From positions 248,001-312,000 of the forward strand of contig NZ_NSKE01000001.1 of assembly GCF_002287075.1 (NCBI RefSeq): 64,000 bases of DNA, given 5' to 3'. Shown here one piece after another: positions 18,639 to 30,917 of this stretch; position 1 is the first letter of the stretch, and the number at the start of each line of letters is the position of its first letter. The notes under the pieces were generated by a model. The model saw only the letters and a program-made list of their open reading frames with translations, searched no databases and was not told the origin of the DNA. A program made the position numbers and the translations under genes. Origin of the DNA: Fodinibius salipaludis (GTDB taxonomy: Bacteria; Bacteroidota; Rhodothermia; Balneolales; Balneolaceae).

Positions 18639-19472
18639 ATGAATTGGAAAACTGTCAGCGAATATGAAGATATCACATTCAAAAAATCAAATGGCGTAGC
18701 GCGCATTGCCATCAACCGACCTGATCTTCGCAATGCTTTTCGTCCCAAAACCTTATTCGAGCTTCAGGATGCTTTTCTGGACGTCCGCGAAGATTCAAAC
18801 ATCGGCGTAGTACTGCTTACGGGCGAAGGACCTTCCCCGAAAGATGGCAAGTGGGCATTCTGTTCCGGTGGCGATCAGAACGTACGCGGCAAGGCCGGAT
18901 ACAAAGATGACACCGGAACGCCTCGGTTAAATGTGTTGGACTTACAACGCCTGATTCGCTTTATGGGTAAAGTTGTTATTTGTGTTGTTCCCGGCTGGGC
19001 CGTGGGCGGCGGACACAGTCTGCATGTGGTCTGTGATCTTACTATTGCCAGTAAAGAAAACGCGATATTCAAACAAACTGACGCCGACGTGGCCAGCTTT
19101 GACGGGGGGTTCGGCTCTGCCCTGTTGGCGCGCCAAGTGGGACAAAAGAAAGCGCGCGAAATCTTTTTCCTCGGCCGTAATTACTCTGCTCAAGAGGCTT
19201 ACGATATGGGGATGGTCAATGCCGTAGTTCCACACGATGAACTCGAAGAAACGGCCTACCAGTGGGCACAGGAAATTCTTGAAAAAAGTCCCACAGCTAT
19301 TCGCATGATTAAATATGCCTTTAACCTGGTGGATGATGGTATGGTTGGTCAGCAGGTATTCTCCGGTGAGGCGACGCGTCTGGCCTACATGACCGACGAG
19401 GCCGCCGAAGGACGCGACGCTTTCCTCGAGAAACGTAAACCTAACTGGGATGATTATCCTTGGATTGGATAA
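18639..19472 (+). CDS. menB: 1,4-dihydroxy-2-naphthoyl-CoA synthase
   Basis: A 277-residue crotonase-fold enzyme that closes the second ring of the naphthoquinone from o-succinylbenzoyl-CoA. Typical motifs: [30 protein letters not shown] (oxyanion region), [40 protein letters not shown] and the C-terminal [13 protein letters not shown], which is the MenB-specific ending. menC, menE and menA are not in the window. Base use is noticeably more GC-rich than the preceding men genes. A decayed copy of its 3' end lies at 20122-20295. Confidence 0.97.
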
Positions 19473-20078: not shown

Positions 20079-20121
20079 TCGAAATAAAATCAGATAGCAA
20101 TAAAAAAAGCCCGCTACATAA

Positions 20122-20295
20122 CGCATAATTAAATATTCCTTTAATCATCTTGTGGACGATGGCATGGGTTTCAGCAGATGTTCACTGGTGAAGCCACGCG
20201 ACTGTACTACATGACCAACGAGGCTGTTAAAGAACGTGATGCCTTCCTTGAAAAAACACAAACCAAATTGGGATGATTATTCTCAGATTGGCTAA
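20122..20295 (+). pseudogene. Decayed duplicate of the menB 3' end
   Basis: Read with two frameshifts this stretch encodes [39 protein letters not shown] and KPNWDDYSQIG-stop, closely matching the last about 55 residues of MenB ([13 protein letters not shown]... [19 protein letters not shown]... [11 protein letters not shown]). One frameshift follows GMG and one follows the FLEK segment. There is no start and nothing upstream resembles the rest of menB, so it is a dead 3' fragment, probably left from a tandem duplication or homologous exchange. The same 330-base gap (20079-20408) otherwise holds only a terminator. Confidence 0.88.
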
Positions 20296-20350
20296 CTCGA
20301 TAAATAGTTTTTGATTTAAAAAAATATTGGTGTTATTTAATGCATAGAAA

Positions 20351-20380
20351 ACAACCCAGTAGTTTGGGCTACTGGGTTGT
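20351..20380 (-). terminator. Hairpin terminator after the 32-residue microprotein gene
   Basis: A perfect 12-bp stem (ACAACCCAGTAG with CTACTGGGTTGT, six-base loop) lies 29 bases past the microprotein stop on the minus strand, followed by TTTTCTATG. Moderately T-rich tail; likely transcription end. Confidence 0.7.
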
Positions 20381-20408
20381 TGGATAATTTAAAGGTTAAA
20401 ATTAGTGA

Positions 20409-20507
20409 TTATTCTGGTGTTGACCGATAATGGGCAGGAATAGTCTTGCCATTTCGCTTATGCTTTTTGACATAGACTTTTTTCTTCCCATTGCTAGTTT
20501 TAGCCAT
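20409..20507 (-). CDS. 32-residue basic microprotein
   Basis: A very short gene: MAKTSNGKKKVYVKKHKR followed by NGKTIPAHYRSTPE. It is preceded by an unusually strong ribosome binding site for this genome, GGAGGTG at 20514-20520, 6 bases before the ATG, and is enclosed by two perfect hairpin terminators, so it is its own small unit downstream of nrdJ. About a third of the residues are Lys/Arg/His and there is no hydrophobic segment; nucleic-acid or ribosome binding is plausible but unproven. The motif VKKHKRNGKTIPAHYRS resembles short KxHxRNGKxVxxHYR segments I recall in other small bacterial and phage proteins. Function unknown. Confidence 0.75.
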   Translation of the reverse strand: MAKTSNGKKKVYVKKHKRNGKTIPAHYRSTPE

Positions 20508-20546
20508 TTTTAACACCTCCTTTCTATTTTTAGTTAGGATTTATTA

Positions 20547-20580
20547 ACAACAAAAGCCCGTTAAAGCGGGCTTTTGTTGT
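20547..20580 (-). terminator. Terminator after nrdJ
   Basis: A perfect 14-bp stem (ACAACAAAAGCCCG with CGGGCTTTTGTTGT, six-base loop) begins 22 bases past the nrdJ stop on the minus strand. The longest T run follows on the plus strand, so on the minus strand it works mainly through its stem and the T-rich stem end. Confidence 0.75.
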
Positions 20581-20602
20581 TTTTAATTATTTGCTTTAGT
20601 AA

Positions 20603-23600
20603 TTACGAGCAACCGGTGGTTGATCCACAGGTAATGCACTTCTGACAGGTTCCATTACGGACCATCGTCATACTACCGCACTCAGGACAAGAATCACCGG
20701 TATAACCCAGCTCCTTGGCCTTTTCATAATCGCTCTGATAACTGTCGTCATCAGCTGCGGATTGTGCCTGTTTCGTGGGTTGTGATTCCACCACAGTTTC
20801 GGGCTGATCAGAACTCCCATTGTTATCAGGTTGCTTAGGAGTATCAACCTTATTTGCTTTTCCCCTAGCTTGTTTTTCCTCTTCAGAAGGACGCATCTTG
20901 CGCGTCATCACTTCTTCCGCAGGAACATGCGCCAGATCATCGCGACCGAGATACGTAACGGCAAGCTCACGGAAAATATAGTCAATCACAGAAGTCGTCA
21001 TTTTCACATGTGGACTTCCACTAACCGTTCCACTTGGCTCGAACTTTGTAAATGTAAAGGCATCCACAAACTCTTCGAGCGGTACGCCGTGCTGCAGGCC
21101 AAGAGAAATTGCAATCGCAAAACAGTTGGTCAGGCTTCTAAATGCCGCTCCTTCTCGGTGCATGTCAAGGAATATTTCACCAAGCTGGCCATTTTCATAT
21201 TCACCGGTTCGCAAGTACACGCTCTGCCCACCAATTTTCACCTTCTGGGTATATCCATTTCGGCGGCTGGGCAAGCGTTTACGCTCAGCCACATATTTAT
21301 GAACAATCCGCTCAGCAGTTTCTACTACCTTATCTTGTTCTGCCTTCGTTTCCTCATCCAGATCTTCTTCATCCAGATCCTCAAAGACATCACTGAGACT
21401 ATTCAGCGGCTGACTCAACTTGGAGCCATCACGATACAAGGCATTGGCCTTCAGCATCAGCTCCCATGAGTCCATGTACGCTTCCTTAAAGTCTTCAACC
21501 GTTGCCTCATTCGGCAAGTTAATCGTCTTCGAAATGGCGCCCGAAACAAACGGTTGCGCAGCTGCCATCATGCGGATGTGCCCTTTGGGTTTAATGTATC
21601 GCGTTCCGATACGTCCACAGCGGTTAGCACAATCGAAGACCGGCAGGTGCTCATCTTTCAAGTGTGGAGCCCCTTCAACGGTCATTGTACCGCAGACGTA
21701 GTCGTTGGCTTCCTGAATTTCTTCTTTGGTAAATCCAAGATGCTTGAGGACATCAAACTGAGGATTCGCCAACTGCTCATCAGAAAGACCAAGCTCTTCT
21801 TTACAGAAGTCTTCGCCCAAGGTCCACTGATTAAAGGCAAATTGAATCTCAAAACTGCTTGGCAGCGCTTCTTCAATAGCGTCAAGCTGTTTGTCATCGA
21901 ATCCTTTTTCACGGAGACTTTCCTCATTAATATGCGGACAGCCATCCAGCGATCCATGTCCCTTGGCATAGTTAATAATTTCTTCACGCTCTTTGGGACT
22001 GTATCCAAGATTCTCCAGCGCTTTGGGCACACATTGATTAATAATCTTAAAGTGTCCACCGCCGGCAAGTTTCTTGAATTTCACCAGCGCAAAGTCAGGC
22101 TCAATTCCGGTGGTATCACAATCCATTACCAGACCAATTGTTCCGGTCGGTGCAATTACGGTAACCTGCGCATTACGATAGCCGTGCTTCTCACCCATTT
22201 TAACAGCTTCATCGGAATCTTCGCGAGCAGCCTTAAGAAGATTTTCGGGACATTCATTCGCATCAATGCCCATTGGCTTTACGGTTAGATCCTCGTACTC
22301 ATCGGGATCCACATTATAGGCCGCGCGTTTGTGATTTCGGACTACTTTGAGCATCGGCTCTTTATTAGCTTCAAAACGCTCGAAAGTACCGAGCTCTTTA
22401 GCCATTTCTGCACTCGTTTTATAAGCATTCATATGGATGATGCTCATCAATCCACCCGCAATAGCACATCCTTCATCACTGTCATACGGCACGCCTTGCA
22501 CCATCAGTGCTGCGCCTAAGTTGGCAAATCCAAGACCAAGCGTACGATATTTGTACGATAGATCTGCAATTTCTTTAGATGGGAACTGTGCCATCAGTAC
22601 AGAAATCTCCAGTACGACCGTCCACAAGCGAGAAGCATTACGGAGTGACTCAACATCAAATTCCTTGCACTCATCCGTTTTAAAATATTTCATCAGGTTC
22701 AATGACGCCAGATTACAGGCCGTGTTATCAAGGAACATATATTCCGAACACGGATTACTTCCATTAATCGGTCCGTCATTGGGACATGTGTGCCACTCAT
22801 TAATAGTATCGTGATACTGTGCTCCCGGATCGGCGCATGCCCAGGCAGCATTCGAGATCTGATCCCAAAGTTCACGGGCCGGCATCGTTTTATGCGGTTC
22901 TGGCTCGCGTCCTTCTTCGGCGGCCTTCCGCTTTTCGGTTCTCCAATAAAGGTTCCAGTCGTCGTCATTTTTGACGGCTCGCATAAACTTATTGGGGATG
23001 CGTACGGAGTTGTTTGAATTTTGTCCGCTTACCGTGCGATACGCTTCAGAATCCCAATCCGTATCATAAGTATCAAATTCCAGATCGGTATATCCTTGTG
23101 CAGCCAACTGAACAACCCGTTCAATATAATTGAGCGGTACCTGATCTTCCTTCGCTTCCTTAATAGCTTTACCAAGCTCTTTGTTTTTAACGGGATCGCG
23201 ACTTACCGCCCCATTAAAAGTACGTCCATCAATTTCAACCGGTTCGTTACAAAGCTTAATGATTTTCTTGAGATGCTTCTCCAAAATCTTGGAGCCGGCA
23301 ACCATAGAAGCAACTTTTTGCTCTTCCCGAACTTTCCAATTTACATATTCTTCGATATCGGGATGATCAAGATCCAGCGTTACCATCTTGGCTGCGCGCC
23401 GTGTGGTTCCACCAGACTTAATAGCACCGGCAGCCTTGTCGCCAATCTTCAGAAAGCTCATCAATCCGGATGACCTGCCACCACCGCTCAAGGGCTCTCC
23501 CTCACCGCGAATTTTTGAGAAGTTACTTCCCGTTCCGGAACCATACTTAAAGAGTCGCGCTTCGCGAACCCACAAGTCCATAATGCCTCCCTCATTGACG

Positions 23601-24232
23601 AGGTTGTCATCGATACTCTGGATAAAACAAGCATGCGGCTGTGGATGCGTATAAGCATCTTCTGACTTTGTCAGTTCTCCTGTTTTTCCATCTACATAAT
23701 AATGACCTTGTGACGGACCATTAATGCCATATGCCCAATGTAAACCGGTATTAAACCATTGGGGACTGTTAGGTGCCGCCATTTGATTGGCCAGCATATA
23801 GCTTAATTCGTCATAAAAAACCTTGGCTTCTTTTTCAGAATCAAAATAATCGTGTTTCCATCCCCAATACGTCCAACAACCGGCAAGACGATGAAATACT
23901 TGGCGGCTGTCATACTCTCCGCCATAATAATCATCTTCATCAATCCCTTCCTTTTTCATCGCTTTCTCATCGGCTTCTGATCGCTGCAACCACTCCGGTA
24001 CTCCTTTTTCTTTTACTTTCTTTGTGATTTGTGGGACGCCCGCCTTGCGAAAATATTTTTGGGCAATTACATCTGTTGAAACCTGTGACCAGGTTTCAGG
24101 TACAATCAATTCTTCCATTGAAAAAACAATGGATCCATCGGGATTTTTTATCTCCGATTTGCGGCTCTCAAAATTCATATCTCCAAATGGACTGTCCCAC
24201 TCCTCTTGTGTATAAAATCGTGTAAATTTCAT
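20603..24232 (-). CDS. nrdJ: Adenosylcobalamin-dependent (class II) ribonucleotide reductase
   Basis: A 1209-residue enzyme making deoxyribonucleotides with an adenosylcobalamin-generated radical. Visible signatures: [26 protein letters not shown] near residue 230, the active-site [11 protein letters not shown] around residue 495, [35 protein letters not shown], and the C-terminal redox cysteines in [29 protein letters not shown]. It belongs to the long NrdJ type with a Cys-rich tail. No oxygen-dependent nrdAB or class III genes are in view. It lies beside the B12 uptake genes but has no cobalamin riboswitch; DnaA boxes lie upstream instead. Start ATG at 24232. No intein or frameshift seen. 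Confidence 0.96.
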
Positions 24233-24617: not shown

Positions 24618-26819
24618 CTATAATTGATACTGCAACTTGATAAAGTATCCTCGACCTCGGGTATTATAACCGTTAATCTCTTGATAATCAGTATTAAAAA
24701 GATTCTCTACTTTTAGTAGTGTAGATAGATTTTCTGTAACTGAATAGCCCACCGTGGCATTTGTTACATTATAACCCGAAACATCACTACGATCCAGGGC
24801 TCCATTCGGACCTAAGCTTGCACTGTAATACACATCATCTCTGGATCCAACATATCGGGAATCAATTTTAAATCGCAGTTTATCAGTAGCTAAATACGAT
24901 GCACTGACAAAGGCATTCACCGATGGACGCCGAGTTAAGCCTTCAATCTCTTTTTCTTCGGTTACATAGGCTCCGCTCTCATATATTTGTACGTGATTTC
25001 CTCCCGTATATGCTGCATCAATGTCATCTGGTGAAAACGTTATTGTTGATCTGGTGAGAGATACGTTTCCTCGTAGAGTAAGTTTGGGAGTTATTCTCGC
25101 TGAGGCTGATGCTTCAAGTCCTGATACCTGCTGCTCAGAAGCATTAATATACGTATCTCCGAGATAGTCTGAATCCGGAAAGCTTGCACTTAAATTTTCG
25201 ATCGCGGTATCGCCATTCCATAAGTACACGTATTCAATGACATCATCTACTACTGTTTTAAAAGCAGACAATTCAAAAGAAAACTGATTGCCTACCTCTT
25301 GCTTCCATCCAAGCTCGTAAGATACCGATGACTCGGGGTCCAGATTTTCATTGCCCCGGTTTGTATAACTTCCCGCGCTTTGTGACGGTGAATAAAGTTG
25401 GTAGAGTGAAGGGGCGTTAAATCCACTGGTTATTGCACCATATAAAAGCGTGGATTCGGTCACCTGAAGTTTGGGATTCACTTCATACGTAAAGTGAGAT
25501 CCAAACTCATCGTGATGGACCAATCGTCCTCCCAATCCTAATGAAAATAACTCTAACTGATCGGCAATTAATCCTCCATTAAGATTGGACTGGGCATACC
25601 CGTTATAAATAATTTCCTTCAATCCTAATGAATCTAAATCGGTTGTCGATTCATACACTCCAAATTGCGACCGACTATACACATAATTTCGAGTAGACAT
25701 CGTTTGTCGCGATGCGGAAGCACCGGCAACAAATCGAATATGATTCCCATCTATTACGGCCTTCAATTCATTTTCCCAGAGTGATCCTTCGGCATTAAGC
25801 TCTGTATAAATCCCGTCATACGTATCATTGGGACTCACAAGGGACGAATCGTTTACAAAATCTCTGTTTAAATCTGAATAGGCACCCTGGAACTCTAAAG
25901 CTACCTGATCTGATAATTCCATGCCACCCCCAAAATTAAACAGATCGCGCTGAAATTCGGTGTAGGCATTACTATCATCCTGATAAGCACCCTGATCAAC
26001 GTCACTGCGCTGATCTACACGTCTATAAGATGCATATAAATCATACTGATCAGTCGAATACCCAAGCTTACCCACTAAATCAAGTTTATTAAAATCATCC
26101 TGATCCTGTGGATTAAACGTATTGGTGCCGGATGTCGTATCAATGGTTGCATCAAACCCGTTGGTCAGCCGAAAGTTGGCACCCAAATTCGCGTACCATC
26201 CCCCATCAGTAGTATAATTAGCAAAAAGGCTGTTTGTAGTGGAATACGTTCCTTCGCCAAATCGCCCGTGTTTGGTTTCTGCATTTACATTAAATCCTTC
26301 TGCTCCTTCCTTTTTTGTAATAATATTAACAACTCCGCCAATAGCCGAGGAACCATAGAGCGTGCTATGTGATCCGCGGACAATTTCGATGCGCTTTATT
26401 CCGGTAAGTGAAAGCTCCGAAAGATCAATAGAATTATTATTGGTAGAAGGATCACTGATTCGAACGCCGTCAATCAATACAACTGAATGATTGGAATTGG
26501 CATTGCGGATAAATCCCTGCTGCAGCGAGCCCGGCGTTTGTCCCGCTCCTATCATATGTACACTTTGCTGTTGCGCCAACAGCTCACTGACATTTGCATA
26601 TGCAGCATTCTGAATATCCTCCTGTGAAATAACAGTAACATTGCGCCCTACCGACTGCGGGGACTGCTCGTATTTACTGGCACTGATTATAATTTCGTCC
26701 AGCTCATAGATTGTAGAGTCGGTTTCTACATCGTTTTGTTGAGCCAGCGTTGGCACAGATATCCAAAGAAAAGCCACCAAGGCACAAAGCCCTGAAAGTA
26801 ATCGTTTAGTTATGGTCAT
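24618..26819 (-). CDS. btuB: BtuB-like TonB-dependent cobalamin receptor
   Basis: A 733-residue outer-membrane receptor. Signal peptide ends VPTLAQ; a TonB-box-like stretch TIYELDEIIISASK follows; the plug domain contains VLIDGVRISDPSTNNNSIDLSEL and RIEIVRGSHSTLYGSSAIGGVVNIITKK, and the barrel ends with the strand GRGYFIKLQYQL. BtuB-type plugs look like this, and the cobalamin riboswitch upstream makes a corrinoid the likely substrate, taken up with TonB energy and passed to BtuF. The leader between the riboswitch hairpin and the ATG at 26819 is 111 bases long. Exact corrinoid specificity is not readable. Confidence 0.9.
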   Translation of the reverse strand: MTITKRLLSGLCALVAFLWISVPTLAQQNDVETDSTIYELDEIIISASKYEQSPQSVGRNVTVISQEDIQNAAYANVSELLAQQQSVHMIGAGQTPGSLQQGFIRNANSNHSVVLIDGVRISDPSTNNNSIDLSELSLTGIKRIEIVRGSHSTLYGSSAIGGVVNIITKKEGAEGFNVNAETKHGRFGEGTYSTTNSLFANYTTDGGWYANLGANFRLTNGFDATIDTTSGTNTFNPQDQDDFNKLDLVGKLGYSTDQYDLYASYRRVDQRSDVDQGAYQDDSNAYTEFQRDLFNFGGGMELSDQVALEFQGAYSDLNRDFVNDSSLVSPNDTYDGIYTELNAEGSLWENELKAVIDGNHIRFVAGASASRQTMSTRNYVYSRSQFGVYESTTDLDSLGLKEIIYNGYAQSNLNGGLIADQLELFSLGLGGRLVHHDEFGSHFTYEVNPKLQVTESTLLYGAITSGFNAPSLYQLYSPSQSAGSYTNRGNENLDPESSVSYELGWKQEVGNQFSFELSAFKTVVDDVIEYVYLWNGDTAIENLSASFPDSDYLGDTYINASEQQVSGLEASASARITPKLTLRGNVSLTRSTITFSPDDIDAAYTGGNHVQIYESGAYVTEEKEIEGLTRRPSVNAFVSASYLATDKLRFKIDSRYVGSRDDVYYSASLGPNGALDRSDVSGYNVTNATVGYSVTENLSTLLKVENLFNTDYQEINGYNTRGRGYFIKLQYQL

Positions 26820-26930: not shown

Positions 26931-26948
26931 GCTTTTCTCCCGAAAGCT
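26931..26948 (-). promoter_or_regulatory. L13-type hairpin after the btuB riboswitch
   Basis: AGCTTTCGGGAGAAAAGC on the minus strand folds as GCUUU/AAAGC with a seven-base loop CGGGAGA. It lies 16 bases past the riboswitch core and is identical, base for base, to the hairpin after the btuF riboswitch. The loop's CGGG can pair with CCCG in loop L5 of the riboswitch, as in the L5-L13 kissing loop known for this class. Confidence 0.65.
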
Positions 26949-26964
26949 ACGAATGCTGTGCGTT

Positions 26965-27128
26965 GGCAGGTCTTCTGGCTTGTTCCGCTTCTGACAACCT
27001 TCCCGTCCCATCCCGGTTAAACCGAGAGAAACAGTGGTTCAAGAAAGATCAAAAGGTTATGGAACTCACAGCATCGGGGAATGCTCCGGATTTTCCCGAA
27101 AATTATCGAGAGCACCGGATTCCCTTTT
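26965..27128 (-). promoter_or_regulatory. Cobalamin riboswitch upstream of btuB
   Basis: On the minus strand the order is GGGAATCCGGTG, then the P5 hairpin GAGCAT-TCCCCG-ATGCTGTGAG, then AACCACTG, GGGAAGG and finally GCCAGAAGACCTGCC, the B12 box. This is the conserved core of adenosylcobalamin riboswitches. It should repress btuB when the coenzyme is plentiful. The L5 loop CCCG matches the downstream hairpin loop CGGG. Confidence 0.95.
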
Positions 27129-27130
27129 AA

Positions 27131-27159
27131 TCCCATCCCAAAACATTTTTAGGATGGGA
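27131..27159 (-). terminator. Terminator of the btuFCD operon
   Basis: A stem TCCCATCC with GGATGGGA, extended by A/T pairs, lies 48 bases past the btuD stop on the minus strand and is followed by TTAAAA, directly ahead of the btuB riboswitch. It would separate btuFCD transcription from btuB. Confidence 0.65.
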
Positions 27160-27206
27160 ACCAATGCACGAGCCGAAAATACGAGGTGCGCTGAATAAAT
27201 CAAAAC

Positions 27207-30532: not shown

Positions 30533-30551
30533 TGTTTCCGTCATCAATACC

Positions 30552-30703
30552 GGCAGGTCTTCTGGCTTACTCCACTTTTAACAACCTTCCCATCCAATAA
30601 TTATCAGGACAGTGGTTTATGAAGGATCAAAAGCTGTCGGAGCTTACAGCAGCGGGGACTGCTCCGGACTTTCCCAAATTAGGGTACACCGGATTCCCGT
30701 TTT
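30552..30703 (-). promoter_or_regulatory. Cobalamin riboswitch upstream of btuFCD
   Basis: On the minus strand the conserved elements are GGGAATCCGGTG, GGAGCAGTCCCCGCTGCTGTAAGCTCC (P5 region, loop UCCCCG), AAACCACTG, GGGAAGG and GCCAGAAGACCTGCC (B12 box). It controls the importer operon. The remaining bases up to 30917 (about 215) contain no gene I can support and no clear promoter. Confidence 0.95.
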
Positions 30704-30917
30704 AACTGTATTTCAAACGAAATACAGACCTGTATTGAATCAGTAAGTAAAATTAATTTCTGCTCTTGATAATAACGGTATTAATATTGAGAAGCCAATT
30801 TAGAATGAACTTGATAATGAACTTATCTTTAAAGATTAAAGCATGTAATAACACTTCCATTTCTGTATCACTCTTTTATATTACCATTCTAAACATTTCA
30901 CCAATTTAACAACTATT

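Follow-up and report, generated by a model that had tools for sequence, protein, structure and literature searches.

The Microprotein Gene and Its Expression Signals

A gene of only 32 codons that lies directly behind a ribonucleotide reductase (RNR) gene and is preceded by an outstandingly strong ribosome binding site raises the question of whether it encodes a real protein and, if so, what this protein does. The locus belongs to Fodinibius salipaludis (GCF_002287075.1) and was studied within a 64,000-nt stretch of contig NZ_NSKE01000001.1 (248,001–312,000), hereafter the window, to which coordinates refer unless another locus is named. The gene (20409..20507, minus strand), as defined by ORF translation, family homology, and purifying selection among homologues, encodes 32 amino acids followed by a stop codon (MAKTSNGKKKVYVKKHKRNGKTIPAHYRSTPE). 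Its product bears 10 Lys/Arg and 2 His among the 32 residues and has no cysteine, and the gene is present in a single copy in the genome, whose assembly is 98.9% complete.

The Shine–Dalgarno sequence AAAGGAGGTG (20514..20523, minus strand) precedes the ATG by 6 nt and is perfect over 10 nt, all ten bases matching the complement of the 16S rRNA 3′ end. The longest match in the other window genes is 5 nt (38 ORFs of at least 200 aa, with any candidate start admitted within the first 40 codons of each), so that the exceptional strength ascribed to this site in the initial annotation is confirmed. The two perfect hairpins said to bound the gene were also recovered by folding. The first, located between nrdJ and the microprotein gene (20546..20581, minus strand), is terminator-like with a perfect 15-bp stem; it was detected as well by a repeat finder (90% over 20 nt) and by a terminator scan, which called it on the plus strand only. 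The second, 3′ of the gene (20350..20381, minus strand), has a perfect 13-bp stem (repeat finder, 100% over 13 nt). Their z-scores are −8.2 and −6.3, respectively, and none of 200 shuffles was equally stable. The downstream hairpin is a probable terminator, in which TTGTTTTCT comes after a GC-rich core (minus strand), although it is terminator-like by eye only and received no call in the terminator scan of the window. That it serves as the microprotein’s own terminator, as initially claimed, is therefore plausible from its appearance but was not backed by the scan.

A Conserved and Mobile Family of Small Basic Proteins

The 32-codon gene is a real protein gene, because it has homologues in many phyla and the substitutions among these homologues are strongly synonymous-biased. 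The initial proposal of a real product was to stand or fall with such homologues, and they exist: pN/pS is 0–0.34 in 14 equal-length homologue pairs (a set that leaves out the window peptide paired with L078 and with L083, for which one of the aligned sequences included the stop codon), and the copies at loci L073 and L074 differ by 11 synonymous and 0 non-synonymous changes.

The microprotein is a member of a conserved, uncharacterised, and mobile family of basic proteins of 32–42 residues, which follow the pattern MAKT..GKKKVxVP.H....HYRSTPN and bear two short VxVPxHxR-type repeats predicted to be beta strands. An alignment of 26 family sequences contains twelve invariant columns. The AlphaFold2 model of the microprotein (pLDDT 82, pTM 0.34) has four short strands, and a fold search of this model against the PDB gave nothing below E 6. 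No match to the microprotein was found in the PDB by sequence, in Pfam, in NCBIfam, or by PADLOC, and Rfam recognised no family in 13 family loci. The window protein does match PHROG 21154 over its full length (E 2.3e-4, profile positions 11–46 of 47), as do 7 of 10 tested relatives at E < 0.001, the best being Marinitoga camini virus proteins (3.6e-23). However, PHROG 21154 consists of phage proteins of unknown function and does not include the link to RNR and NrdR described below, whereas the window copy resides on a chromosome. The window copy is not virus-encoded: no phage gene was recognised in the segment between nrdJ and menB, while viral copies are found elsewhere.

A profile scan of 84,980 species yielded 24 family loci, and further members were found by profile in viral contigs, on a Marinobacter plasmid, in Marinitoga phages, on a Synechocystis plasmid, and in Bacillota. 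At least seven phyla have members: Balneolota, Bacteroidota, Pseudomonadota, Desulfobacterota, Bacillota, Cyanobacteriota (on a plasmid), and Thermotogota (as a phage host). The distribution is patchy: members reside in temperate phages, on plasmids, in islands, and here and there on chromosomes. Canonical members are present in 4 of 201 Halomonadaceae genomes, and members occur in 5 of 249 genomes of one Bacillota order and in 3 of 341 and 2 of 295 genomes of two gammaproteobacterial orders; the window’s own family has 2 of 92 genomes with a match at E < 0.01, and a sample of the phylum has 5 of 394 at E < 1e-4, weaker matches (e.g., 16 of 21 in the phylum sample) not being counted as members. 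Repeated loci (L002/L042/L075, L043/L081, L044/L142, L045/L143, L088–L091, L135–L139, L150/L151, and similar) were counted once. Another Balneolaceae genome has a 63%-identical homologue, preceded by a gene that by eye resembles lon. Several members are missed by genome annotation (no feature under H1 and H10).

Arrival of the Gene behind nrdJ

Synteny with nrdJ, which the initial annotation singled out for checking, was found in none of the 11 other genomes of the genus, all of which keep a terminator-like hairpin after nrdJ without the peptide; what stands instead is that family members elsewhere follow RNR operons unrelated to this one or have NrdR boxes upstream. In the window, what is probably the 3′ arm of the original nrdJ terminator (20099..20115, minus strand; repeat finder and congener comparison by eye) is 449 nt away from its partner arm at 20565–20581. 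Because these halves are adjacent in the congeners (by eye) and the DNA between them has a G+C content of 35% (window 42%, nrdJ 46%, menB 50%), the intervening segment of about 450 bp (20116..20564) is read as acquired by insertion into the nrdJ terminator, and the microprotein as a recent arrival at this place. The segment holds the peptide gene, its hairpins, and a broken C-terminal menB-like gene fragment (20129..20295, plus strand), which is similar to the intact menB (18639–19472) but is not a copy of it.

The microprotein gene was probably picked up from another bacterium. Its nearest homologues are those of Thalassobacillus (78% identity) and Salibacterium (75%), both of 32 aa and with strong ribosome sites of their own (AGGAGGTGA and AAAGGAG, respectively); among the aligned members, the length of 32 aa is common only to the window peptide, L078, and L083. 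The tree (37 columns) is mostly unresolved, and no starred set contains the window protein. The highest identity, the equal length, and the ribosome site speak for a possible Bacillota-type donor, from which the exceptional Shine–Dalgarno sequence may have been inherited. Such a site would be carried by any recent arrival of this type, so that the high expression suggested in the initial annotation is only one reading of it. The menB fragment could instead mean that the donor was a relative of the host, and both origins could have occurred in series. More generally, a ribosome site of exceptional strength may be a sign that a gene has recently come in from a different phylum.

Association with Ribonucleotide Reductase Genes

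Directly upstream of the microprotein gene and co-oriented with it lies nrdJ (20603..24232, minus strand; Pfam/NCBIfam), which encodes a class II (B12-dependent) RNR of 1209 aa; nrdJ ends at 20603 and the microprotein start codon is at 20507, with a gap of 95 nt. The order nrdA-nrdB-peptide is observed in Halomonas (L066, L067, L069, and L070, i.e., all four canonical Halomonadaceae members), where the peptide gene follows nrdB by ~200 nt, and the order nrdA-nrdB-ferredoxin-peptide in Neptuniibacter (L071); Pfam matches confirm RNR in the window and at L069, L070, and L071. Family members follow, therefore, RNR operons in three lineages with unrelated RNR types (class II and two class Ia), the Halomonadaceae adjacencies being counted as one lineage. 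Since the NrdA and NrdB proteins of Halomonas and Neptuniibacter, which represent two distant class Ia types, are only about 30% identical, the adjacencies look as if they arose independently. Of the 47 canonical loci examined (each spanning at most ~16 kb, with near-copies among them; the window outside the count), none beyond the five named contained NrdA, NrdB, or NrdJ, and 10 of the 11 Bacteroidota/Balneolota copies have no RNR link, the eleventh being the window copy. Wherever the peptide gene adjoins RNR genes, a terminator-like hairpin stands between them, so that the two would not necessarily be co-transcribed.

The association extends to a divergent relative in Halomonadaceae with the pattern KSVIKRVYVPTHVR.LPNGE.V.VPGHY. 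Matches at E 1e-4 or better are present in 85 of 201 genomes of this family, and the divergent relative accounts for those inspected in the 81 genomes that remain beside the canonical four. At 24 of 40 loci (from 40 of the 81 genomes, taken mostly from the top of the list), nrdB lies upstream on the same strand, 36–4674 nt away; one of the 24, L179, has only a broken nrdB-like tail. In L069, the canonical and the divergent peptide stand in tandem behind nrdAB. As for L179, its broken C-terminal nrdB-like tail is found within 200 nt upstream of the divergent peptide, as if the two had moved together.

NrdR Boxes Upstream of Stand-Alone Copies

NrdR has been described as a repressor of RNR genes that binds a pair of 16-bp boxes lying 15–16 bp apart (PMC12051234), and topA as a further NrdR target (PMC4409342). 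The idea of NrdR boxes in this family came from some of the same sequences, as pairs had been seen by eye in Rheinheimera-type leaders; the box pairs of L083, of the SinR-linked copies, and of Marinitoga had not been spotted by eye before the scan. The 500 nt upstream of all copies were scanned with an NrdR box consensus, at a threshold of at least 22 of 32 matches and a spacer of 14–17.

Among the 21 stand-alone copies (those without adjacent RNR) from groups in which NrdR is expected, 10 have a box pair, namely, L063, L064, L072, L073, L074, L083, L084, L140, L141, and L152, with p of 0.0005–0.009 each (Markov shuffles). The best pair, that of L074, reads ACACACTATCTTGTGT – 15 nt – AAACTATATATTGTGT. 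The nrdA promoters used as positive controls scored 25 and 26. Among 222 control windows, five attain a score of 22: three are nrdA promoter regions (L069, L070, L071), one lies on the other side of the L069 region, and one in L079, without RNR. About 300 scrambled palindromic consensus strings gave a mean of 0.94 loci and a maximum of 9, so none reached 10. Spacers of 15, 16, and 17 bp were represented by 5, 4, and 5 loci, respectively, and all other spacers by 0–4 (22 bp by 4). L077, with one strong box (14) and a second one by eye, scored 20 and was counted as a miss, and L153, a near-copy of L152, was left out of the count.

No pair reached the threshold at the other 11 of the 21 stand-alone copies (including that of the Synechocystis plasmid), at the six copies directly behind RNR, or at ten Bacteroidota/Balneolota copies. 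For the window copy, the best box score is 16/32 (p 0.999), which places it outside the NrdR regulon by this test. Each of 7 tested genomes from Gammaproteobacteria/Bacillota encodes NrdR itself, and each of 5 from Bacteroidota/Balneolota lacks it; these five include the window’s genome, which at 98.9% completeness has no match to TIGR00244 (NrdR). A Marinitoga phage copy found later has a box pair of 23/32. Of ten further viral copies, which represent a distant subfamily (KKIVPVK...HRRSTPN), nine are without a box pair, the exception being of the Marinitoga type, and none has RNR within the DNA examined. Box pairs were likewise absent from all 24 divergent Halomonadaceae windows scanned (of 26 loci; L094 and L104, near contig ends, were left out). 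As the viral copies found later mostly lack box pairs, the NrdR-box link is restricted to part of the family.

Possible Function

Part of the family is coupled to RNR both statistically and physically. The reading preferred here, though held tentatively and at less than even confidence, is that the microprotein acts as a small regulator or accessory of RNR and is expressed in step with it. The peptide would then be made when RNR is made, i.e., when dNTPs are short, and would act on a target that class I and class II systems share, such as the catalytic (alpha) subunit, the nucleotide pool, or DNA. A class II RNR like that of the window is not known to have a beta subunit, so the radical-generating subunit would be a less likely shared target than the alpha subunit or the dNTP/DNA side.

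Bacteria have other small proteins that are encoded within RNR operons or take part in controlling RNR: the accessory proteins NrdH, NrdI, and YfaE, and the repressor NrdR. However, these possess redox or regulatory domains and known folds, whereas the microproteins have 32–42 residues, no Pfam model, and, in the window copy, no cysteine. Yeasts have the small RNR regulators Sml1, Spd1, and Dif1, which the microprotein would resemble if it acts on the catalytic subunit; they are eukaryotic and longer, and the likeness is one of working only, with no sequence relation implied. A bolder version of the same reading, according to which this mobile family of at least seven phyla and phages directly tunes RNR or the dNTP supply, is switched on via NrdR when dATP falls, and is a counterpart in working of the yeast regulators, we regard as rather doubtful. 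In either version, dNTP control would gain a previously unannotated component that travels with phages and mobile elements; members occur in culturable marine bacteria (Rheinheimera, Halomonas, Marinobacter). A search confined to the open-access literature turned up no report of a comparable small protein associated with NrdR or RNR.

Nearly as likely as an RNR-coupled regulator is a basic nucleic-acid-binding protein carried by temperate phages and integrative elements and engaged in replication, recombination, or DNA protection, for which the RNR link would only time expression to DNA synthesis or low dNTP. The 12 Lys, Arg, and His residues of the window peptide fit such a role, and so do the genomic contexts: integrases, recombinases, or lysogeny genes near L041, L064, L068, L077, L140, L141, L210, and L211 (by eye), phage recombination regions (in Marinitoga viruses, beside recT), and the defence-like islands L142 and L143, with nucleotidyltransferase genes resembling CBASS (by eye). 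By eye, the viral copies are placed within lysogeny regions, with integrase or recombinase genes next to them, and in view of these neighbourhoods and islands, the gene seems to travel as cargo. Against a nucleic-acid-binding role, where Halomonas and Neptuniibacter carry the gene on the chromosome after nrdAB, its nearest neighbour is not an integrase (by eye), and the fold search found no nucleic-acid-binding fold.

In one subgroup, the peptide might instead be the partner of an upstream protein, in a toxin–antitoxin or nuclease–cofactor pair. Five copies (L041, L063, L064, L140, L141), found in Marinobacter and on its plasmid, on a viral contig, and in two gammaproteobacteria, follow an ORF of ~93 aa, which we take to be SinR/Cas2-like, near integrases, recombinases, or DNA methylases. 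The peptide gene starts ~10 nt after this ORF in L041, L063, L064, and L141 (L140 has an early-ending version), and at all five loci box pairs lie upstream of both genes (scores 21–25). Such a pair is nevertheless improbable as an explanation: the five gammaproteobacterial or viral loci are closely alike, the partner is seen at no other copy, and Pfam, NCBIfam, and PADLOC gave no match to the ORF. With NrdR-box pairs upstream, the SinR/Cas2-like ORF is a second candidate NrdR target.

There is similarly little to be expected of a ribosome- or translation-associated role, as the initial annotation had proposed alongside contact with RNA or DNA. The protein is small and basic with a strong ribosome site, and well-folding leaders in Halomonas and Rheinheimera could serve autoregulation, but the family, at the frequencies given above for the window’s family and phylum, is too patchy for a ribosomal component, and no ribosomal gene was recognised among the neighbours (by eye). 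Finally, a chance ORF or functionless relic, which absence from all 11 congeners and the adjoining broken menB fragment might suggest, is made very unlikely by the occurrence, in several phyla, of close homologues whose differences are biased towards synonymous sites.

Further Features of the Loci

A conserved leader RNA is not claimed for the family: the Halomonas and Rheinheimera leaders fold well, with 4 double-change pairs each, but comprise 3–4 sequences with a covariation term near or above zero, and the window copy has no such leader. In the Rheinheimera-type loci L073 (6162–6374) and L074, a conserved cysteine-containing ORF of 71 aa, with no Pfam match, follows the peptide. In three Bacillota genomes (L144, L145, L146), a conserved protein of ~450–480 aa is encoded divergently from the peptide, that of L146 having no Pfam match, and repeated TGTCAC motifs seem to lie between the two genes (by eye). 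L071, L081, L082, and L086, from different phyla, share a motif like GCTTGGTGTTGAC 35–50 nt upstream of the ATG (by eye). In the window itself, Rfam found only one tRNA and two cobalamin riboswitches (26948–27180 and 30535–30748, minus strand), the former of which precedes a TonB-receptor-like gene (24618–26819, by eye), so that B12 uptake stands beside the B12-dependent nrdJ.
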